A stretch of DNA of 64,000 bases from positions 1 to 64,000 of the forward strand of contig JAAYDC010000016.1 of assembly GCA_012729455.1 (NCBI GenBank). Reading direction: 5' to 3'. A program made the translations under genes and the position numbers. This DNA is from Chloroflexota bacterium (GTDB lineage: Bacteria > Chloroflexota > Anaerolineae > UBA1429). Below are positions 26,108 to 39,367 of this stretch, in pieces. The notes under the pieces were generated by a model. That model had not been told where the DNA came from and made no database searches. It saw only the letters and a program-made list of their open reading frames with translations. Positions within the stretch are counted from its first letter, which is position 1, and each line of letters begins with the position of its first letter.

Positions 26108-27213
26108 GGAGCCGCCTCTTGCAGCCAAGCCGGCACGGCCTGGCCGCGCATGCTGATAGCCTGAACCGGGCAGTTGGCGATGCACATACCGCAGCCAAAG
26201 CAAGCCGCTTCGAGCACATGCGCCGCGGTAACGCCCTCAGCATCGGCCAACTCGACGGCACTGTGCGGACAGGTGCGAATGCATGTCAGGCAGCGGATGC
26301 ACTTTGCCCTGTCGACCCAGGCCAGCACCGCCTCGGGCTGCGTGCCGTTCACCGTCAGCAGAACGGCAAGTTGGCTGGCCACCAGCTCGGCATCCTGGCG
26401 CACACCAGAGTCGTCAGTATCCAGATGGCAGCGCCCTACCAGGTACACGCCCTTACGGGCTGTGCCGCCAAAATGGTAAAGGTGTACGTTGAAGGGCTGC
26501 AGGTAACCATCCTCGCCCACGCGGATCCCGAGCGCCTCTGCCAGGGCAGGATGATCGCGCCGTGGACGCACCGGCTGAGCCACCCCCAGCAGGTCAGCAC
26601 GCAGCTGGCCATCGGCATGGCGAATGGTGATGCCCTCAGCATCGGGCTCCGGCATTGCCGCCTGCAGGCGATGAAACGCTACACCGGCAGCACGCAGATC
26701 GCGTACGCGTTTTTCCAGCCAGTCGGTATCGACCTGCAGCTCGCGGTAGAGCACCGAAACCTCGCACTTACACTTGTCTCGCAGCTGCCCGGCCAGATCG
26801 ATCACTTCGCGGGTGGCCTCGCGGCTGGCGGGAGTCATCAGGTCAATCGTCAGGGCGATGTGCTGGCGCTGGCGCGAGGCACGCTCGGTGATCGACGCGG
26901 GTTTGGTCAGCTGTGACGCCAATTGTTTCGTCGACACAATGCGCGCGTGCTGCGGCAACTTTTTAAGGGCGGTCAGTGGCACCCGTTCGTTGCCCGTAGC
27001 AACCACCACAGCTCCAACGCTCAGCGCTGTCAGGCTGCCATCACAGAATCCGCGCAGGGCAAAGCTGCCGACATAACCCTCCAGTGTGCTCAGCTGGAAG
27101 GGCGCTGAGGGGCCCTGTACAATGCGCTCGACCCTGAAGCCGTGCGACCGCAGTGCCTGCGCGGCACAATCCGCGTCATAGCCCGTGCCGATGACCGCCA
27201 CAAGCTCGTTCAT
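26104..27213 (-). CDS. HdrA-like protein with C-terminal 2x[4Fe-4S] ferredoxin domain
   Basis: A 369-residue protein. The N-terminus begins MNELVAVIGTGYDADCAAQA, a weakened dinucleotide-binding loop. The middle follows HdrA (ITERASRQRQHIALTIDL, VEVSVLYRELQVD-like) but lacks the C-V-G-S-R cluster motif of true HdrA. The C-terminus has CIRCLTCIRTCP and CFGCGMCIANCP. It looks like the second half of an HdrA, split from the preceding gene, with which it shares an ATGA overlap. Together the two could equal one HdrA of about 716 residues. The start ATG 27213 fits the overlap pattern. Confidence 0.82.
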   Translation of the reverse strand: MNELVAVIGTGYDADCAAQALRSHGFRVERIVQGPSAPFQLSTLEGYVGSFALRGFCDGSLTALSVGAVVVATGNERVPLTALKKLPQHARIVSTKQLASQLTKPASITERASRQRQHIALTIDLMTPASREATREVIDLAGQLRDKCKCEVSVLYRELQVDTDWLEKRVRDLRAAGVAFHRLQAAMPEPDAEGITIRHADGQLRADLLGVAQPVRPRRDHPALAEALGIRVGEDGYLQPFNVHLYHFGGTARKGVYLVGRCHLDTDDSGVRQDAELVASQLAVLLTVNGTQPEAVLAWVDRAKCIRCLTCIRTCPHSAVELADAEGVTAAHVLEAACFGCGMCIANCPVQAISMRGQAVPAWLQEAAP

Positions 27214-28253
27214 GCCGGCTGCTCCTGCAGATCCTGCAGACAAGCAGCGGCGGCGCGCCGAGCATGAGCGATCGAATCGGCGATCGAACGGGGCGCCTGG
27301 CAGCAGCCTGCCAGATAAATGCCCGGCACGGCGGTACGCACATCATCAGCAGCTGATGCCATAAAGCCAAAGGCGTTGCGCTCCAGGCCGAACAGGTCGG
27401 CCGTAGCAGCCGCATCGGCGCGCGGCTGGATACCCGTCGAGAGCACTACCAGGTCCGCCAGCAGCGAGGTGTATTGTCCGGCATGGATATCGTCATACTG
27501 CAAGAGCACTTGCTCATTGTGCGCGCCGGCACGCTGTATCTGGGCCGGCAGCCCCGTCACAAAGGTAATGTCTTCCTTTTGAGCCAGATCGAAAGCCTGC
27601 GAATCGCGCCCGCAGTGCTGGATATCCATCCTGAATACCGTCACCACGGTGTTGGGCGAACGCGCCTTCAAGAGCCTGGCAAGGCGCACTCCATAGCGGC
27701 AGCAAACCTGGGAGCACCACCCGCGGCCAGCCTGCTCGTCGCGTGAGCCGACACACTGGATAAATGCCACCTGGCGCGGTTCGTCAGTATCAAAAGCGGC
27801 CTGCCCTGCCTCGCTCAGACGGCGTTCGAGCTCGTCACCGCTGATGATCGCTGGCAAGAGCCCATAGCCAAAAGCGCCCTTGGTGCGCGCATTTACATGG
27901 TCAAAACCGGTCGCCAGGATAACGGCAGACGCGGTACCTTCCAGGCTGCCATCGAGGGTGCAGAGAGTATAGCGGAAACCGCCTTCAGAGGGGTTGCAGC
28001 TGGTAACTGTGGTGGTGAGTTGTATATCGATGCGGGTCTGATCGGCACAGGCTTGTAACTGGCCGGCATACAGGCAGCCGCCGCACTGCTGGCAGCGCCC
28101 TGCGACAGCCTTGCAGCATACGCTGCTCGCCTGGCCGCCCAGCTGGGCATCGCGTTCGACCAGCGTCACCGGCACGTCGCGCTCGGTAAGCGCCAACGCG
28201 GCGCTCACTCCGGCGATGCCACCTCCTATCACAAGCACACCGTGGCTCGTCAT
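27210..28253 (-). CDS. HdrA-like FAD protein, first gene of the methyl-branch operon
   Basis: A 347-residue flavoprotein: VIGGGIAGVSAALAL FAD loop (residues 7-21), CQQCGGCLYAGQLQAC near residue 55 where HdrA has an Fe-S motif, and the HdrA signature CVGSRDEQ with CSQVCCRYG (about residues 170-190). It ends IYLAGCCQAPRSIADSIAHA, the FAD-closing motif. It is about half the length of canonical HdrA, and the following gene supplies the ferredoxin domain. The promoter TTGACT-N17-TATAAT (28322-28294) lies 41 bp upstream, so this is the head of an operon that runs without a gap larger than 21 bp to fhs. Confidence 0.88.
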   Translation of the reverse strand: MTSHGVLVIGGGIAGVSAALALTERDVPVTLVERDAQLGGQASSVCCKAVAGRCQQCGGCLYAGQLQACADQTRIDIQLTTTVTSCNPSEGGFRYTLCTLDGSLEGTASAVILATGFDHVNARTKGAFGYGLLPAIISGDELERRLSEAGQAAFDTDEPRQVAFIQCVGSRDEQAGRGWCSQVCCRYGVRLARLLKARSPNTVVTVFRMDIQHCGRDSQAFDLAQKEDITFVTGLPAQIQRAGAHNEQVLLQYDDIHAGQYTSLLADLVVLSTGIQPRADAAATADLFGLERNAFGFMASAADDVRTAVPGIYLAGCCQAPRSIADSIAHARRAAAACLQDLQEQPA

Positions 28254-28850: not shown

Positions 28851-31316
28851 ATGGAGACACCCATTTTAGCAATGCAACAGGGCGGCGGTGAGGAGCACCC
28901 GCAGACGCCCAACAACCTGCCGGTTTTACCGCTTAAAAATACCGTAATCTACCCGCTGACAGTTTTTCCGCTGGTGGTGCAAAAGCCGCGCTCGGTACGC
29001 CTGGTGGACGATGCAGTCGTGGCCGACCGTACCGTCGCCCTGGTAGCGCTGCGCGACCCCGAAGTGGAAGAACCCACCCCCGAAGACCTGCACGAGATCG
29101 GCACGCTGGCCACCATCCACCGCATGGCCCGCTCGCCGGACGGCACCCTGCACATTGTGGTTCACGGCACTGAGCGTATCCGTCTGGGCGCCATTACACA
29201 GCGCGACCCGTACATGCGCGGTGATATTGAGGTGCTGCCCGACTTGGTCGAGGATACCATCGATACCGAAGCCCTGGTACGCAGCGTTTCAGACCTGTTC
29301 CGCAAGCTGATGGGCCTGGCGGCTTATATGCCCGAAGAAGTGGCGCTCAATGCCCTCTCGGTGGATGAGCCCCGCCAGTTGGTCTATCTGATCGCCTCGA
29401 TCACGCGCATGGATTTGGCGACCCGCCAGCGTATCCTCGAAGCGGATAGCGTTGCCGACAAGCTGCGCATCCTGCTGGGAGTGCTGACGCGCGAAGTCGA
29501 AGTGCTTGAGCTGGGAAAAAAGATCCAGACCGATGCCCAGTCGGGGATCGAAAAGGTACAGCGCGAGTATTATCTGCGCGAACAGATCAAGGCCATCCAG
29601 CGCGAGCTGGGCGAAGAGGATGAACAGGCTGCCGAAATCAACCAGCTGCGCGAGCAGATCGAAAAGGCGGGACTCTCGGAAGAGGCTCTCAAAGAGGCGC
29701 ATCGCGAGCTCGACCGCCTCTCAAAGCTGCCGCCGGCGGCGGCCGAGTATTCGGTGATCCGCTCGTATCTGCAATGGCTGGCCGAGTTGCCTTGGCAAGT
29801 CACCACCACCGACCACCTGGATGTAAGCGCTGCGCGCGCCATCCTCGATGAAGACCATTACGACCTTAAAAAGGTCAAGGACCGCATCATCGAGTTTTTG
29901 GCAGTACGCAAGCTGCGCCAGGAGCGCGCCAACCCCGATGCCGAGCAACCGCGCGACCACATCCGCCAGGAACGCGAAGGCGTGATCCTGTGTTTTGTGG
30001 GGCCTCCGGGGGTCGGCAAGACCTCACTGGGCAAGTCAATCGCGCGCGCCCTTGGGCGAGAGTTTATTCGCCAGTCATTTGGCGGTCTGCACGATGAATC
30101 CGAGATCCGCGGACATCGCCGCACCTACATCGGCGCCATGCCCGGGCGCATCATCCAGGCGATTCGCCGCGTGGGGACGCGTAACCCGGTGTTCATGCTC
30201 GACGAGGTCGACAAGATCGGCGCCGATTACCGCGGCGACCCATCTTCGGCGCTCCTCGAGGTACTCGACCCGGAACAGAACCGCGAGTTCCGCGACAACT
30301 ATCTCGACGTGGCCTTTGACCTTTCGCAGGTGATGTTTATTGCCACGGCCAACGTGCTGGATACGATCCCCGCCCCCTTGCGCGACCGCATGGAGATCCT
30401 GCAGCTTTCGGGCTATACCGAAGAAGAAAAGATCCTGATCGCCAAAAACTATCTCGTGGCGCGCCAGATCAAGGAAAACGGCCTGCGCGACGACGAGGTC
30501 AGTTTCGATGACGATGCTCTGAGGGTGATCATCCGTGAATACACCCGCGAGGCGGGCGTGCGCGAGCTCGAACGCCAGATCGGCACGATCTGCCGCAAAA
30601 TCGCCACCACTATTGCAGCTGGCGAGACCAGCCAGGTACAGGTGGGAGCTGAGGATATGCACAAATACCTGGGCAAGCAGATCTATTTCTTTGATGTGGC
30701 CGAACGCACGCAGGTGCCTGGCGTGGCCACCGGACTGGCCTGGACGGCAGCAGGCGGCGATATCCTGTTTGTCGAAGCGACCAAAATGCGCGGCAACAAG
30801 GGCTTTACCGTGACCGGACAGCTCGGCGATGTGATGCGCGAATCGGCCACTACCGCGCTGAGCTATGTGCGTGCCAACGCGCAGCGCCTCGGCGTCCCCG
30901 AGGATGCCTTTAACGACCTCGATATTCACCTGCATGTGCCAGCTGGCGCCACCCCCAAGGATGGCCCCTCGGCTGGCGTGACGATGGCCACCGCTCTGGC
31001 TTCTTTGATGATGAACAAACCTGTCAGCGGCGAACTGGGCATGACCGGCGAGATCACGCTGCGCGGCCAGGTATTGCCGGTAGGGGGCATCAAGGAAAAG
31101 GTGCTGGCTGCTCATCGCGCGGGGCTCAAGCGCATCTGCCTGCCCCGCAAAAACGAACGCGACCTCGATGAATTACCCGAACAAGTCCGCAACGAGATAA
31201 TTTTTATCCCCTGCGACCGTGTGGAGCAGGTTTTTGCGGAGGCCTTCGGACTAACGGAAGGAAATAACCGTGTCCAAAGCGACACAACCCAAGACGACCA
31301 ACAACAGCCCGACTAA
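28851..31316 (+). CDS. lon: ATP-dependent protease Lon (La)
   Basis: An 821-residue AAA+ protease of usual bacterial length. The N-terminal LonN domain begins [14 protein letters not shown], a coiled coil lies near residues 220-280 ([18 protein letters not shown]), and Walker A is [13 protein letters not shown] (about residue 384). The sensor region contains [10 protein letters not shown]. The protease domain has the catalytic dyad Ser in [15 protein letters not shown] and Lys in [14 protein letters not shown]. The start is ATG 28851 with GGAG 5 nt upstream; the in-frame GTG at 28821 is less likely. It overlaps the following PHP gene by 47 bp. Confidence 0.97.
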
Positions 31317-33147
31317 TCAGATGCAATGGCGGCGGGCGGATTTGCACGTCCACACGCCCGGCTCACGCGACTATCAGGAACCGGGCATCACGTATCTCGA
31401 TATCCTGCAAAAAGCAGCTGACGAAAACCTCGACATCATTGCCTTTACCGACCATAACACGATCGCTGGCTATGCTGCCATGCAGCAAGAGATCAACGAC
31501 TTGGAGCGTTGGGTAGCCCTCGGCAGGGCTACCCCGCAGGAAAACGAGCGCCTGGCGCGCTACAAACAGCTCTCCAAACGGTTGCTGATCCTGCCGGGCT
31601 TTGAGTTCACCGCCACCCTCGGATTCCACATCCTGGCGCTCTTTGACCCCACCACCTCGATCCGCGCCATCGAGCATGTGCTGCTGCGGCTCAACATCCC
31701 TCCGGCAATGCTTGATGTGGGCGCTACCGAAGTGGGCGCCACCACCGACGTCCTGACCGCTTACCGTATTATGGCCGAAGCGGGCGCGTTGGTGATTGCA
31801 GCGCACGCCAACTCGACCCATGGCGTGGCGATGGTGGGCTTTGATTTCGGCGGCCAGACCAAGATCGCTTACACCCAGGATGCCAACCTGGCGGCGCTCG
31901 AAGTCACCGACCTGACGGCAAAACGCCGCCGCACGACCGCCTCGTTCTTTAACGGGTCCAAGCCCGAATATCCGCGCCGCATGCACGTCATTCAGAGCTC
32001 GGATGCGCATCGACTAAAGGGCCTGCCCGGTACGCACGCTAACCCGGGCGTGGGGGAGCGCCTCATCGAGCTCCTGCTGCCCGAAGTCTCGTTCAGCGCC
32101 ATCAAGGCGCTCTTTGCCTCACAGGATTTCAGCCGTACCCGCCCCGCCTCAGCTACGCCGGATGTGGTCTTTGACCACGTGCTGGACGCGCGCAAACAGG
32201 GCATCTCGATTGTACAGAGCTTTCACGAGCAGGGCAGCCGCGCCGGCGGAAGACTGCATGCTATCCTGCGCGACGTGGTAGCCTTTGCCAACACCAACGG
32301 CGGCACCATATGGGTGGGCGTCAGCAGTAATGCGCGTGCCAAGATCGCGGGCATTGACGACCCCAAGGCGTTGATCGACGACCTGCGTAACTCAGCTGAG
32401 CGCATGATCAGCCCGCCGCTTGAGCTGACCTTTACGGTGATGGAAACCGGCGGCAAGCACGTGGTACAGCTGCAGGTGCCGCGCGGCAACGAGCAACCAT
32501 ACGTGCTGGAAGGCAGCAAGATCTATATTCGGCAAGAGACCGAGACCAGCCTGGCGATGCGCGAAGAAATAATTGCCATTATCCGCCGCCAGATCGAGGC
32601 CGAGCGGCCTGCTGCCCCGCGGCGCGGTCGCCGGACGGCATCCAAGGCAGCTAACATGGCACCGACTGTGGTCGAAGAGCCCGTAGCACCAGAAGCCCCC
32701 GTGGATGAGTCGATCGAGCCGCCCATTAATACGACACCGAGCGTGCCGCTCTCACCCGAGAACACACCCGACTATCCGCACACCGGTGTCGAGATTGTCG
32801 AATCGGTTGAACGCAAGGGCCAGGTGTATCACGCGATGCGCGACCTGCGCGATGGCGACATTGTCAACAACGTCACGCGCGCCTCGGCGCGCAGGTTGTG
32901 GCGTTATGCCATCGCCCTCAAGGAAAAGCACTCGTTCAACGAAAGCTCGGTCAAGTGGCAGGGTGACATCGGCCTGTGGCACCGCTACTTGCGCAACGGC
33001 AAGTTGCAGTATGACCTTGTTCAGCGCACCCCGGATGGCCAGGTGCACATCTTTTACGGTGTCACCGAAGAGGGTATCCACGGTCGCTGGAAGGACCTGG
33101 TCGAGCGCAATGCCTCGAGGAATGAACCCACTGACGAAAGCGCCTGA
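31270..33147 (+). CDS. PHP phosphoesterase domain fused to an AlbA_2-type domain
   Basis: A 625-residue protein. Residues 20-260 form a PHP metal-dependent phosphoesterase: [31 protein letters not shown], and SSDAHRLKG supply the usual His/Asp ligands. Residues 320-440 resemble the Schlafen/AlbA_2 (ATP-binding DNA-binding) domain, with [20 protein letters not shown]. After a Pro/Ala/Glu-rich linker (450-500), a C-terminal domain contains [17 protein letters not shown] and ends near WKDLVERN. The substrate is unknown; a nucleic-acid or nucleotide phosphodiesterase is plausible. It starts with GTG 31270 (SD GGAAGG) inside the end of lon and is followed by a GNAT gene 3 bp later. Confidence 0.8.
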
Positions 33148-33568: not shown

Positions 33569-34519
33569 ATGTTCGACATCGTCTTTTTGGGCACCTCGGC
33601 CTCGGCGCCCTCCGTCGAACGCGGGCTCTCGTCGGCTTTGCTGATGCATCGTGACCAGCGCTTTTTGCTGGATTGCGGTGAGGGCACCCAGCGCCAGCTG
33701 ATCCGCAGCGGTATGGGATTCCGCAAGATCGATAAAGTCCTGCTCACCCACGGCCACCTCGACCACATCCTCGGCCTGGGCGGGCTGGTTTCGACCTTCT
33801 CGCGCTGGGAATCGATCGATACCCTGTCGCTGTATGGCGGCCACTGGGCCCTGCAGCGCGTGCACGACCTCATGAACGTGGTCCTGCGCGGCGGTGAAGC
33901 CGAGATGGAGATTCACTATCACCCGGTGAATGCCGGCGTCATCTGGCAAAACCAGCATCTGCAGGTGTCGGCCTTCCCGGTCAATCATCGCGGACCGGGC
34001 TGCTTTGGCTACCTTTTTCAAGAGCCCAGCCATCGCCCCTTTATACCCGAGATAGCCGACGCGCTGGGCGTGCCGCGCGGCCCCGAGCGCAAGCAGCTGG
34101 TGCAGGGATCCAGCATTACCCTGGCAGATGGCCGCCTGGTGCACCCCGACGAGGTGCTCGGCCCAGCTGAGGCGGGCGTCAAGGTGGTGCATGTGGGCGA
34201 TGCCGGCAGCACCGCTGATCTGGTGCCCTATTGCGCCCAGGCCGATGCGCTGGTGATCGAAGCGACCTACACCAGCGCCGAAGAAGCCATGGCCGCCCAA
34301 TTTGGTCACCTAACAGCCGCACAGTCTGCCCGACTGGCAGCCGAGGCTGGTGTAGGCGCGCTCTTCCTGGTGCACCTCTCGCGGCGTTATTCAGAGCGCG
34401 AGATCCTCCGCGAAGCGCGCGCAATCTTTCCGAACACGTTTGTACCGTGCGACCTCGAGTGTTACCGGGTGGGTAAAGGCTTCGCCGAGCGGGTGGAGGT
34501 GAGCGATGGATTGGCGTGA
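33569..34519 (+). CDS. rnz: Ribonuclease Z
   Basis: Endonuclease that trims tRNA 3' ends. The 316-residue metallo-beta-lactamase protein has FLGTSASAPSVERGLSS at the start (the family's GTS/GTxxxxP-type loop), LLDCGEGTQRQL, and the zinc motif LTHGHLDHILGLGG (about residue 62). Further ligands are VNHRGPGCFG, the HVGDAGST Asp, and HLSRRYSERE near the end. Length and motifs fit RNase Z better than the many other beta-lactamase-fold hydrolases. The end overlaps the UbiD-family gene by 14 bp. Confidence 0.92.
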   Translation: MFDIVFLGTSASAPSVERGLSSALLMHRDQRFLLDCGEGTQRQLIRSGMGFRKIDKVLLTHGHLDHILGLGGLVSTFSRWESIDTLSLYGGHWALQRVHDLMNVVLRGGEAEMEIHYHPVNAGVIWQNQHLQVSAFPVNHRGPGCFGYLFQEPSHRPFIPEIADALGVPRGPERKQLVQGSSITLADGRLVHPDEVLGPAEAGVKVVHVGDAGSTADLVPYCAQADALVIEATYTSAEEAMAAQFGHLTAAQSARLAAEAGVGALFLVHLSRRYSEREILREARAIFPNTFVPCDLECYRVGKGFAERVEVSDGLA

Positions 34520-35846
34520 TCTGCTTGATCTGGCTGACCGCCGCGGTTGGCTGCACCATGTTCGCAGCGAGGTTGACCCGTACCTCGAGATGGCACGCGT
34601 AATCAACGCCCTCAACGAAGAGCTGGTGCTCTTTGAACACCCGCTTGGCTCGCGCTTTATGGTATCGGCGGGCGCCTGCAGCCAGCGCTGCTACCTGGCG
34701 GCTGGCATGGAGCTGGAAGAGGCCGACCTGCCGCAGGCTCTGCACCAGGCACTCGCCAACCCGAGCGCTCCAACGGTCGTCAGTAAAGCAGCCTGTCAGG
34801 AAGAGGCGATCGAGGGCGCCGACCTGATGGCATTGCCGATCCTGACGCATTACGCCAACGATGGCGGGGCATACATTACCTCGGCTGTCGGGGTGGTGAA
34901 CGACCCTGAGCTCGGGCCCAATCTCTCGTTCCACCGCCTGATGCGCGTCGATGCCAGGCGCGGCACGATCCGCCTGGTGGAAAACCGCGGCATGCACACC
35001 GCCTGGCTTAAATCCTCGGAGCGCGTGCCGGTGGCACTGTGCATCGGCGCGCCCATCCAGGTGCAGGTAGCAGCCTCGATATCGCCCTCCCCCGGCATCG
35101 ACGAGATGACCATCGCCAACACCCTGAGCCAAACTGAGGTAGTGCGCGCGCTGGGCAGCGACCTGCTGGTGCCCGCCAGCAGCGAGTTCATCATTGAAGG
35201 CTGCCTGGCGCGCGAGCTGGCCGACGAAGGCCCCTTTGTCGACCTGACGCGCACGCGCGACATCGTGCGCCAGCAGCCCTGGTTCGTGGTCGAACGCATC
35301 ACCCATCGCAAGGACGCCATCTTCCAGGCCCTGTTGCCGGGCGGCAGCGAGCATCGCCTGCTGATGGGCATGCCGCGCGAACCGACCATCTATGCAGCCG
35401 TCAACCAGGTTTGTAAGTGTCTGGCGGTCAGCATCACTCCGGGCGGCGGTCACTGGCTGCATGCCGTGGTACAGATCAACAAACAGCACCCCGATGACGG
35501 ACTGCGGGCTATTGAGGCAGCCTTCAAGGGGCACAGCTCGCTCAAGCACGTCGTGGTGGTCGATCGCGATGTCGACCCGAACGATTCCGAGGCGGTCGAG
35601 TGGTCGATCGCGACGCGCTTTCAAGCCAGCAAAGACCTGCTGGTGCTGCATGACCAACCTTCCAGCTCTCTCGACCCATCGGCAACCTATGTGCCGGGCG
35701 CCAAGACGCGCACCTCCAAGATGGGCCTGGATGCCACCATCCCGTGGGAAGGCGAAGATGGACCGGCACATCCTGCCGATTTCGAGACGATGCATTATGA
35801 GCCGATCGACCTGGCGCGCTTTTTGGAGCCGGGCTCATGCAATTGA
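34506..35846 (+). CDS. UbiD-family decarboxylase, probable trans-anhydromevalonate 5-phosphate decarboxylase
   Basis: A 446-residue member of the prenyl-FMN dependent UbiD family: ENRGMHTAWLKSSERVPVALCIG (substrate/cofactor region), PASSEFIIEGCL, and HVVVVDRDVDPND all match family blocks. The neighbours decide the likely reaction. It overlaps aconitase-X large subunit (10 bp), which is followed by the small subunit and isopentenyl phosphate kinase. In the archaeal mevalonate pathway these three activities turn mevalonate 5-phosphate into IPP, with a UbiD-type enzyme decarboxylating trans-anhydromevalonate phosphate. No ubiX is visible. Taken alone it could be any UbiD decarboxylase; the assignment is an inference from context. 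Confidence 0.82.
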   Translation: MDWRDLLDLADRRGWLHHVRSEVDPYLEMARVINALNEELVLFEHPLGSRFMVSAGACSQRCYLAAGMELEEADLPQALHQALANPSAPTVVSKAACQEEAIEGADLMALPILTHYANDGGAYITSAVGVVNDPELGPNLSFHRLMRVDARRGTIRLVENRGMHTAWLKSSERVPVALCIGAPIQVQVAASISPSPGIDEMTIANTLSQTEVVRALGSDLLVPASSEFIIEGCLARELADEGPFVDLTRTRDIVRQQPWFVVERITHRKDAIFQALLPGGSEHRLLMGMPREPTIYAAVNQVCKCLAVSITPGGGHWLHAVVQINKQHPDDGLRAIEAAFKGHSSLKHVVVVDRDVDPNDSEAVEWSIATRFQASKDLLVLHDQPSSSLDPSATYVPGAKTRTSKMGLDATIPWEGEDGPAHPADFETMHYEPIDLARFLEPGSCN

Positions 35847-37087
35847 GCGACTACGAAGCCGCCCTCCTTGCAGGGCAGGAGGGGCCAGCTGTACAACGCG
35901 CCATGCAGATCGTGACCACACTTGGGCGCGTGTATGGCGCACCTGACCTGATACCGGTTGCGAGCGTCCAGGTAGCGGGCGTGAGTTACCGCAACCTGGG
36001 CGATGCCGGGCTCGAGTTTAACCAGGATTGGGCAGCTCAGGGCGCGCGGGTGCAGGTGCCCACCACCCTCAACCCCTCCGGTATGGACCACAAACAATGG
36101 CGCGAACAAGGTTTTAGCGAAGATTTTGCCGCGAAACAGGTTGCCGTGGTAGCGGCATACACTGCCATGGGCATCATGCCCACCTGCACCTGCATCCCCT
36201 ATGAGATCGGCAATCGCCCACGGGCCGGCCAATCACTGGCATGGAGCGAATCATCCGCGGTGGTTTACGCCAACTCGGTGCTGGCAGCGCACACCAATCG
36301 CGAAGGCGGGCCGAGCGCCCTCGCTGCCGCCATTTGTGGGCGCACCGCGCGCTATGGGCTGCATCTGCCGCAAAACCGGCTGGCGACGCATCGCATCACG
36401 GTGCGCTGCCCAGTACGGACTTCCCATGAATTCGCCGCGCTGGGCTATCTGGTAGGTAAGCAGGTCGGCGATGGGGTTCCCTGTTTCGTGGGACTCGAAT
36501 TACCGCCTATTACATTAGGTGTTGACGGCAGCGCCAGTCTGGCGAGCGATCACAACGATGCGCTCAAGCTGATGGGCGCAGCGCTGGCATCCAGCGGAGC
36601 TGTGGCGCTTTACCACGTTGAAGGCGTCACCCTTGAGGCACAAAACGAGAGTATGGTGGGGCCAGCCCCTCACGAGATCACTGTCGATAGCCTCGCTCCC
36701 ACGATCGCAGAGCTCAACCACGCCATCGACCAGATCGACCTGGTGGTGATCGGCTGCCCACATGCCTCACTAGCCGAGATCGGCGCCGTCGCCGAGGAAC
36801 TGCGCGGGAAAAAGTGCCGCGCGCAGGTATGGGTCACCACCGCGCGGGCTGTGCGCGACCAGGCGGCGGAACGCGGCTGGGTGGCAGAGATCGAAGCCGC
36901 CGGCGGGTTGGTGGTGGCGGATGGCTGCGTGGTAGTAGCCCCGATGCGCGAGCTGTGCTACCGCACCCTGGCGACCAACTCGCCCAAGATGGCGGCCTAT
37001 GCCCTGCCGCACGCTGGCTTACAGGCGCGCTTTGGAGACCTATCCGCCTGTATGCGCGCTGCGGTCACCGGCTGCTGGGAGGCCTGA
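35837..37087 (+). CDS. Aconitase X catalytic (large) subunit, probable phosphomevalonate dehydratase
   Basis: A 416-residue AcnX (DUF521) protein: PTTLNPSGMDHKQW, TCTCIPYEIGNRPR with Cys for the Fe-S cluster, WSESSAVVYANSVLAAHTNREG, and IGCPHASLAEI. AcnX large and small subunits form phosphomevalonate dehydratase in archaea; other AcnX enzymes act on hydroxyproline or pyrroline compounds. The order UbiD-AcnX large-AcnX small-IPK supports the mevalonate role. It overlaps the UbiD gene by 10 bp and the small subunit by 1 bp (TGATG), so subunits are translationally coupled. Confidence 0.9.
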   Translation: MQLSDYEAALLAGQEGPAVQRAMQIVTTLGRVYGAPDLIPVASVQVAGVSYRNLGDAGLEFNQDWAAQGARVQVPTTLNPSGMDHKQWREQGFSEDFAAKQVAVVAAYTAMGIMPTCTCIPYEIGNRPRAGQSLAWSESSAVVYANSVLAAHTNREGGPSALAAAICGRTARYGLHLPQNRLATHRITVRCPVRTSHEFAALGYLVGKQVGDGVPCFVGLELPPITLGVDGSASLASDHNDALKLMGAALASSGAVALYHVEGVTLEAQNESMVGPAPHEITVDSLAPTIAELNHAIDQIDLVVIGCPHASLAEIGAVAEELRGKKCRAQVWVTTARAVRDQAAERGWVAEIEAAGGLVVADGCVVVAPMRELCYRTLATNSPKMAAYALPHAGLQARFGDLSACMRAAVTGCWEA

Positions 37088-37476
37088 TGGGCACACATCT
37101 GCAGGGGCGCGCCATTGTCGAGGGACAAGCCAAAGGGCTCGCACTGGTGAGCCGCACCCCCATCTCGTTTTTGGGCGGCGTCGATGGCGAACGCGGCATC
37201 ATCACCGAGACCGACCATCCCCTGTACGGCGAATCGGTGGCTGGCCGGATACTGGTCTTTCCGCATGGCAAGGGCAGCACGGTCGGATCGTATGTCATCT
37301 ACCGCCTGGCCAGAGCCGGGCTGGCGCCGGCGGCGATCATCAACGTCTCGACCGAGCCGATCGTGGCAGTCGGTGCGCTGATCGCCGATATTCCGCTGGT
37401 CGACCAGGTGGATATCAGCCAGATCGAGACGGGCATGCCCGTCTCACTGGAAGGAGCGGACATTACCCTTGGATGA
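37087..37476 (+). CDS. Aconitase X swivel (small) subunit, probable phosphomevalonate dehydratase
   Basis: A 129-residue DUF126 protein, the swivelling domain of AcnX. The signature HGKGSTVGSYVIYRL (about residues 59-73) with the conserved Ser that binds the substrate phosphate or carboxylate is present, followed by INVSTEPIVAVGALIADIP. It works only as a heterodimer with the large subunit encoded directly upstream (1-bp overlap). The isopentenyl phosphate kinase gene begins inside its last codons at TTG 37469. Confidence 0.9.
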   Translation: MGTHLQGRAIVEGQAKGLALVSRTPISFLGGVDGERGIITETDHPLYGESVAGRILVFPHGKGSTVGSYVIYRLARAGLAPAAIINVSTEPIVAVGALIADIPLVDQVDISQIETGMPVSLEGADITLG

Positions 37477-38275
37477 GATCGTCTTTTTAAAATTGGGCGG
37501 GTCGCTCCTTACCGACAAACGTCACCAAAACAGCGCGCGCACAGCGGTGATCACGCGGCTGGCCGGTGAAGTTGCCGCCGCCCTGGCACAGCGCCCCGCC
37601 CTGCGCCTTTTGTTGGGACACGGCAGCGGATCCTTTGGCCATTACCCGGCCGCCCTTTACGGCGTACGAGCCGGCAACCTGCGCGACTGGTTCGGCTATG
37701 CCGCCACCAGCGATGCCGCCCAGGCCCTCAACCGTTTGGTTGTCAGCGCATTGGTCGCGGCCGGCGTGCCGGCTGTAGCAGTGCAACCATCCGCAACGGC
37801 GCGCTGCCGGCAAGGGCAACTGATCGAGCTCGACCACACGGTCGCCCAGATCCTCCTCGAACGCGGTTGCGTGCCAGTGGTATATGGCGATGTAGCGCTC
37901 GATGAGGCGATCGGCTGCACGATTATCTCCACCGAACAGGTATTCAGTTATCTGGCAGGTGTATTCAACCCGCAGCATATCCTGCTGGCTGGCGAGGTGG
38001 CGGGCGTTTACCAGACTGATCCGCACTTGGATGCCAATGCCGCGCTTTTACCCGAGCTGACCTTTGCCGAATTCCAACACCTGGCCGGCGGCATCGGCGG
38101 GGCCGGCAGCGTCGACGTAACTGGAGGGATGGCCAGCAAGGTACAGTTGATGTTTGGCCTGCTTTCGAGCGGGTTAGCCGGCACGGTGACCATTATGGGG
38201 GCCATGGAGGCCGGCACACTCGAGCGTGCTCTGCTCGACCCTGCGAATGCTGCAGGAACTATGCTGCACATTTGA
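37469..38275 (+). CDS. Isopentenyl phosphate kinase
   Basis: Phosphorylates isopentenyl phosphate to IPP with ATP. The 268-residue amino-acid-kinase-fold protein begins MDEIVFLKLGGSLLTDK (phosphate loop) and has LLLGHGSGSFGHYPAA, the IPK motif whose last His contacts the substrate phosphate. PVVYGDVALD and the lid region LAGEVAGVYQTDP follow. It starts with TTG 37469, 8 bp inside the AcnX small-subunit gene, with GGAAGGAG upstream. IPK occurs in archaea, plants and some Chloroflexi. Here it completes a set that fits the archaeal mevalonate pathway. Length and motifs are normal. Confidence 0.92.
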   Translation: MDEIVFLKLGGSLLTDKRHQNSARTAVITRLAGEVAAALAQRPALRLLLGHGSGSFGHYPAALYGVRAGNLRDWFGYAATSDAAQALNRLVVSALVAAGVPAVAVQPSATARCRQGQLIELDHTVAQILLERGCVPVVYGDVALDEAIGCTIISTEQVFSYLAGVFNPQHILLAGEVAGVYQTDPHLDANAALLPELTFAEFQHLAGGIGGAGSVDVTGGMASKVQLMFGLLSSGLAGTVTIMGAMEAGTLERALLDPANAAGTMLHI

Positions 38276-38332: not shown

Positions 38333-39367
38333 ATGGAAGGGTTTATCGCCTTTGTTGTGATATTGGGCGTATTGGTCGCTCTGCACGAATTTGGCCACAT
38401 GATGGTGGCCAAGGCGTTCCACGTTAAAGTCGACGAGTTTGGGCTGGGGTTTCCGCCGCGGCTGATCAAACTCTTTACCTGGGGCAGCACCGATTTTACG
38501 CTCAACGCCCTGCCTCTGGGCGGTTTTGTGCGTATGGCCGAAGACGACCCCGCCTCGCCAGGAAGCCTGGCCAGCAAAAAGCCGTTGGTGCGCGCTCTGG
38601 TGCTGGTAGCCGGGCCGCTCACCAATCTGATTTTGGCAATCCTGCTGCTCAGCGTGACCTTTATGGCTGGCACGTTAGAGCCTTATGACGGACCAGGGGC
38701 GGGGGTATATGGCGTTTCGTTGCGCTCACCCGCCGAAGCTGCCGGCATCGCTCCGGGCGACAATATAATCAGCATCGATGGGCAAACCATCGAGACCGCT
38801 GACCAGGTTTCGCAGATCGTACAGCAGCGCCTGGGGCAGGAAGTGACCCTGGTCGTTACCCGCAACGGCGAGGAACTCGCCCCCATCAAGTTGGTACCGC
38901 GCACCGGCCCGCCTCCGGGCGAGGGCGCTATCGGCATCGCGGTGGATCTTCCGCTCAAGATCGTGAAATATCCCATCTGGGAAGCGATCCCGCTGGGCGC
39001 CAAGACCTCTTACCTGATGATGCGCAACCTCTTCCGGACCATTGCGGCAGCCTTCCGTAAAGAGGTCGCCTTTGAGGTGACTGGTGTGATCGGTATGTAC
39101 CGCATGACCAAGCAGGTTGCACAGACTGGGCTGATCCGCCTGCTGGAATTCGCCGGCTTTTTATCGGTGAACTTTGCGCTGTTAAACATCATGCCGATCC
39201 CGGCATTGGATGGCGGACGATTGATATTTGCGTTGCTCGAATGGATCCGCGGCGGGCAAAAGATCCCCCCCGAAAAGGAAGGGCTGGTGCATCTGGTTGG
39301 CATGGTGCTGCTGGTGGCCCTGATGGTGGCCGTGGCCGTGCTCGATTATAACCGCTACTTTCGCTGA
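38333..39367 (+). CDS. rseP: Site-2 protease RseP, M50 family
   Basis: A 344-residue intramembrane zinc protease. The first membrane helix contains the catalytic HEFGH (about residue 21), a PDZ domain lies at about residues 115-190 (AAGIAPGDNIISIDGQTI), and the third ligand region is NIMPIPALDGGRL near residue 282, followed by a final helix (VGMVLLVALMVAVAVL). It releases membrane-bound regulators such as anti-sigma factors. In many bacteria rseP follows dxr of the MEP pathway; here isopentenyl phosphate kinase is in that place, 57 bp upstream. Confidence 0.95.
   Translation: MEGFIAFVVILGVLVALHEFGHMMVAKAFHVKVDEFGLGFPPRLIKLFTWGSTDFTLNALPLGGFVRMAEDDPASPGSLASKKPLVRALVLVAGPLTNLILAILLLSVTFMAGTLEPYDGPGAGVYGVSLRSPAEAAGIAPGDNIISIDGQTIETADQVSQIVQQRLGQEVTLVVTRNGEELAPIKLVPRTGPPPGEGAIGIAVDLPLKIVKYPIWEAIPLGAKTSYLMMRNLFRTIAAAFRKEVAFEVTGVIGMYRMTKQVAQTGLIRLLEFAGFLSVNFALLNIMPIPALDGGRLIFALLEWIRGGQKIPPEKEGLVHLVGMVLLVALMVAVAVLDYNRYFR

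Follow-up and report, generated by a model that had tools for sequence, protein, structure and literature searches.

Overall, our analysis makes us confident that a four-gene operon in the window (the whole stretch of 64,000 nucleotides that was analyzed) is the lower half of the archaeal (Aeropyrum-type) mevalonate pathway and the route of this bacterium to isopentenyl diphosphate (IPP). This conclusion is based on gene content, gene order, protein families, key residues, phylogenetic trees and co-occurrence, together with searches in which neither DXR nor an MDD-type decarboxylase was found. The original prediction of archaeal-type mevalonate genes in a bacterial operon is thus supported by families, residues, trees and genome content alike.

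Organization of the operon

The run lies at positions 34506-38275 (+) and encodes, in this order, a UbiD-family decarboxylase, the large and small subunits of AcnX (AcnX-L and AcnX-S) and isopentenyl phosphate kinase (IPK), with neighbors overlapping by 1-10 bases in the list of open reading frames (Table 1). Four overlapping genes of these families had been proposed here, and the reading frames and the domain and NCBIfam searches agreed. The best solved match of AcnX-L was Thermococcus kodakarensis 7cnr_A, and AcnX-S matched 7cnr_B at 140 bits and retained the catalytic Ser-Thr. The solved chains nearest to the window IPK were IPKs, including 3ll9, and those nearest to the decarboxylase were Escherichia coli UbiD and the 6h6x enzyme, which we take to be HmfF-like.

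Table 1. Features of the operon and its surroundings (positions in the window)
Feature	Positions	Strand	Basis
FAD-dependent protein	27210-28253	-	HdrA-like by eye (cysteine-rich, flavin-binding start)
PHP-domain protein	31270-33147	+	partial likeness to TrlF and anti-phage Ppl, well below cut-offs
RNase Z, conserved upstream neighbor, overlaps UbiD start	33569-34519	+	NF000801 over cut-off; synteny
UbiD-family decarboxylase, probable trans-anhydromevalonate 5-phosphate decarboxylase	34506-35846	+	446 aa; PF01977/PF20695/PF20696 (N/Rift/C domains); TIGR00148 over cut-off
AcnX large subunit, probable phosphomevalonate dehydratase large subunit	35837-37087	+	416 aa; PF04412 450 bits
AcnX small (swivel) subunit	37087-37476	+	129 aa; PF01989 118 bits
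Isopentenyl phosphate kinase, TTG start	37469-38275	+	268 aa; amino-acid-kinase fold; NF040647 168 bits, cut-off 120
RseP-type site-2 protease, conserved downstream neighbor	38333-39367	+	TIGR00054 over cut-off; synteny

AcnX and UbiD group with archaeal enzymes

The cluster and substrate residues of AcnX from Aeropyrum pernix and T. kodakarensis have been named (PMC10040528, PMC8184944). As in type IIb enzymes, the window AcnX consists of separate large and small subunits from adjacent genes (PF04412, PF01989). AcnX-L carries Cys119, Cys307 and Cys364 (sites A, 1 and 2), the catalytic Glu138, and Val366 instead of a cysteine at site C, in agreement with archaeal phosphomevalonate dehydratase (AcnX type IIb). 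All 10 positions that bind mevalonate phosphate in T. kodakarensis AcnX are identical in the window. The residues that hold the 5-phosphate (T. kodakarensis Gly48, Val49, Ser50 and Asn53, plus Ser131) are kept in 39-40 of 40 enzymes of the class; hydroxyproline-type AcnX proteins, like the second AcnX copies of the class, have mostly lost them. The marks of cis-3-hydroxyproline dehydratase are missing, as the site-C cysteine of type I is absent and the motif reads Glu-Ser-Ser, the same as in archaea, rather than Glu-Ser-Asn. In a tree of 55 sequences, only two of them archaeal, the window AcnX joined the archaeal enzymes, with type I and the paralogs separated from them (SH-aLRT 99). Phylogeny had been proposed as a check, and it placed AcnX with the archaeal phosphomevalonate dehydratases, not with the hydroxyproline type.

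Other forms of AcnX also occur in the class. A second, hydroxyproline-type AcnX is encoded in several genomes (L125-L133), beside or instead of the dehydratase. In family f33, we observed an AcnX that is a single chain of about 600 aa and carries the swivel domain at its C-terminal end (L111:5520-7310, L113:8315-10129, L118:11360-13204), a domain order that is the reverse of the published type I order. This fused protein directly follows the decarboxylase in two of three genomes and keeps Gly-Val-Ser but not Asn53.

For the decarboxylase, the same kind of check gave a matching answer. The window UbiD shares a clade with the AcnX-adjacent UbiD of the archaeon Ca. Benthortus lauensis. E. coli UbiD, the 6h6x enzyme and one paralog of the class fall outside it (SH-aLRT 99), so that the window enzyme sides with an archaeal AcnX-linked decarboxylase and not with E. 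coli UbiD or HmfF-like enzymes. The Glu-Arg-Glu/Asp network of UbiD enzymes lies next to prenylated FMN (PMC5818171). The corresponding Glu241-Arg144-Asp246, assigned by comparing spacing and alignment with Fdc1 and not by structure, was present in all 46 UbiD sequences of the class and in the archaeal one.

It could be argued that a hydroxyproline dehydratase and an aromatic-acid decarboxylase have merely been joined by chance. The only NCBIfam match of AcnX-L is indeed the cis-3-hydroxyproline dehydratase model (309 of 700 bits, far under the cut-off), and hydroxyproline-type paralogs do occur in the class. However, the window AcnX belongs with the phosphomevalonate dehydratases by both tree and residues, and the UbiD-AcnX pair often adjoins mevalonate kinase (MVK) or IPK in the 49 genomes that have it. 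We therefore regard a chance pairing as very improbable.

Upper pathway genes and the putative route to IPP

The window lies on contig 12; the assembly amounts to 2.64 Mb and is 99.2% complete. On contig 10, genes for HMG-CoA reductase, HMG-CoA synthase, thiolase, a DUF35 protein and mevalonate kinase are clustered on the same strand. The synthase is archaeal-type (TIGR00748, 515 bits), the DUF35 partner is a zinc-ribbon/OB-fold protein, and the reductase is taken as class II from its match to the TIGR00532 model. Among the other GHMP kinases of the genome, the three that were scored all stayed below the mevalonate kinase cut-off. A type 2 IDI (IDI-2) is also encoded, so the genome holds HMG-CoA synthase, HMG-CoA reductase, mevalonate kinase and IDI, with no MDD_C match for an MDD-type decarboxylase. 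The original prediction placed the other mevalonate genes and ubiX outside the window; mvaS, mvaA and mvk, absent from the window, were found elsewhere in the genome, whereas ubiX was not. It further proposed looking for the absence of dxs and dxr, and on the DXR side this agreed: a DXR search of 100 genomes of the class found none, either in the window genome or in its 99 relatives. The content that would have spoken against the assignment, a complete MEP pathway and no HMG-CoA reductase, does not fit this genome, in which HMG-CoA reductase was found and DXR was not.

From these data we infer the individual reactions, the type of cluster and the need for prenylated FMN. Thiolase, HMG-CoA synthase with its DUF35 partner, HMG-CoA reductase and mevalonate kinase, all encoded on contig 10, would convert acetyl-CoA to mevalonate 5-phosphate. 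Using an iron-sulfur cluster, the AcnX heterodimer would then remove water to give trans-anhydromevalonate 5-phosphate, which the UbiD protein would decarboxylate to isopentenyl phosphate. This step should need prenylated FMN from UbiX. Finally, IPK would phosphorylate isopentenyl phosphate to IPP, and IDI-2 would provide DMAPP.

Distribution and gene order in the class

Our survey covered 100 genomes of the class with a completeness of at least 85%. Of these, 51 had a phosphomevalonate-dehydratase-like AcnX (including the three divergent fused proteins) and 52 the decarboxylase; both occurred in 49, one alone in 5, and at least one in 54 (Fisher p=4e-22). When dehydratase or decarboxylase was set against the MDD-type enzyme, 8 genomes had both, 46 lacked MDD, 36 had MDD only and 10 had neither (p=1e-10); both p-values treat the genomes as independent, which they are not. 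MDD-like genes were found in 44-47 of the 100 genomes. The dehydratase/decarboxylase route thus largely replaces the MDD route in the class, the two being nearly exclusive. Some of the genomes with neither route carry a divergent MVD-like protein, and a decarboxylase of the type seen in family f4 may account for some of the genomes with neither route. The f4 protein (L148:3656-4825; PF22700, 99 bits) was nearly missed by the MDD_C model. In a separate draw of 121 genomes across the phylum, a close dehydratase (at least 45% identical) was found in two genomes besides that of the window, one of them of the same class; therefore, the pathway appears to be concentrated in the class.

The nearest named relative, Anaerolineales bacterium UBA6128, is 66% identical and has the same gene order. 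The conserved block reads lon, PHP protein, RNase Z, UbiD, AcnX-L, AcnX-S, IPK, rseP and HEAT protein, and, small gaps or contig ends aside, it recurs in G062, G016, G040, G075, G096, G048, G027 and UBA6128. Throughout the block, the PHP-domain protein sits between lon and RNase Z. Other families show the order MVK-UbiD, in part with AcnX and IPK behind it. The order of the four operon genes is found again in several other families of the class and is therefore not due to chance. Bacterial rseP usually has dxr as its upstream neighbor; as a curiosity only, IPP-making genes here occupy that place.

Since archaeal-type genes were found within a metagenome-like assembly, the operon might be archaeal DNA misbinned with a bacterium. 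Nevertheless, bacterial lon, RNase Z and rseP flank it, their order is kept across several families, and the GC content of the operon equals that of its flanks. The conserved bacterial flanks refute misbinning, and we give it practically no weight.

UbiD without a detected UbiX

According to PMC6541611, UbiX makes prenylated FMN for UbiD enzymes. A profile search across the window genome did not find UbiX; its superfamily was represented by CoaBC alone. A profile built from UbiX proteins of the class was then run at E up to 10 on 18 genomes scored as lacking UbiX, and it found UbiX in none and CoaBC in some; both positive controls were detected at E 2.5e-62 or better. Thirteen genomes of six families, the window genome included, keep the decarboxylase and lack DXR, MDD and UbiX (f1, G000 and G062; f6, G005 and G069; f7, G006 and G040; f17, G016; f27, G026, G056 and G081; f39, G048, G075 and G096). 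All thirteen retain the intact cofactor-side network and have no other visible route to IPP. Moreover, no UbiD residue separated the UbiX-bearing from the UbiX-lacking genomes, so the decarboxylase of the latter looks normal.

In four other families, UbiX lies in the operon or adjoins the decarboxylase (G012 and G044; G037 and G066; G054; G159). In G159 (f26, L139:3-3746), UbiD, AcnX-L, AcnX-S and UbiX form one run, with UbiX directly linked to the dehydratase genes.

It is quite possible, short of probable, that the pathway operates as stated and that UbiX exists but was missed, either because the assemblies do not contain it or because its sequence has diverged beyond the reach of the profiles. 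All of this rests on draft genomes, and G050, which lacks UbiX while its close sisters have it, looks like plain incompleteness. However, UbiX is absent from thirteen genomes in six families, most of them 91-99% complete, and within each of these families every sampled genome that bears the decarboxylase lacks it. On the decarboxylase tree, its absence runs along families (5 changes) instead of being scattered, which makes chance assembly gaps a poor explanation. As for divergence, the profile gives about 20 bits even for a domain as remote as CoaC in CoaBC. A UbiX-like protein should therefore not escape it, and the UbiX of relatives scores E 1e-45 or better.

It is about as possible, in contrast, that at least six bacterial families make IPP through a UbiD-type decarboxylase without UbiX. 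They might use an as yet unrecognized enzyme for prenylated FMN (or, for example, CoaBC in a double role), or a different cofactor. The operon neighbors in the UbiX-lacking families (lon, PHP, RNase Z, rseP and HEAT) offered no candidate for a replacement, and much of the lon-to-HEAT block is also found in G027, a UbiX-bearing genome.

Relation to known pathways and significance

Hayakawa et al. 2018 reported the modified mevalonate pathway of A. pernix (described in PMC10040528 and PMC9128505). The window pathway resembles it in the AcnX dehydratase with the same cluster cysteines, the UbiD decarboxylase and the final phosphorylation to IPP, and differs in its bacterial host, its class II HMG-CoA reductase and the lack of any detected UbiX-like partner. 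Within Chloroflexota, the MPD-IPK pathway of Roseiflexus castenholzii (Dellas et al. 2013; PMC3857490) is likewise a mevalonate route with IPK as the last step, but it uses an MDD-like phosphomevalonate decarboxylase instead of AcnX and UbiD. According to a 2026 review (PMC13001223), which cites Kanno et al. 2024 (AEM) on Ca. Promineifilum breve, an archaeal-type mevalonate pathway is encoded by some Chloroflexota. Judging from the title of that paper and the citing review, this bacterium, which belongs to another lineage than ours, shares the archaeal-type pathway with the window genome. Therefore, having been published in 2024, such a pathway in Chloroflexota is not new in kind. How widely it is spread across the class, the conservation of its gene order and the failure to find UbiX appear to go beyond the published account as known from the citing review, and Kanno et al. 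2024 may already mention some of these points.

The archaeal mevalonate route is thus common in one bacterial class, in about half of 100 sampled genomes, and is not a single odd case. In thirteen of the sampled genomes, an apparently essential decarboxylase is not accompanied by the one enzyme known to make its cofactor, a gap that could lead to a second route to prenylated FMN.
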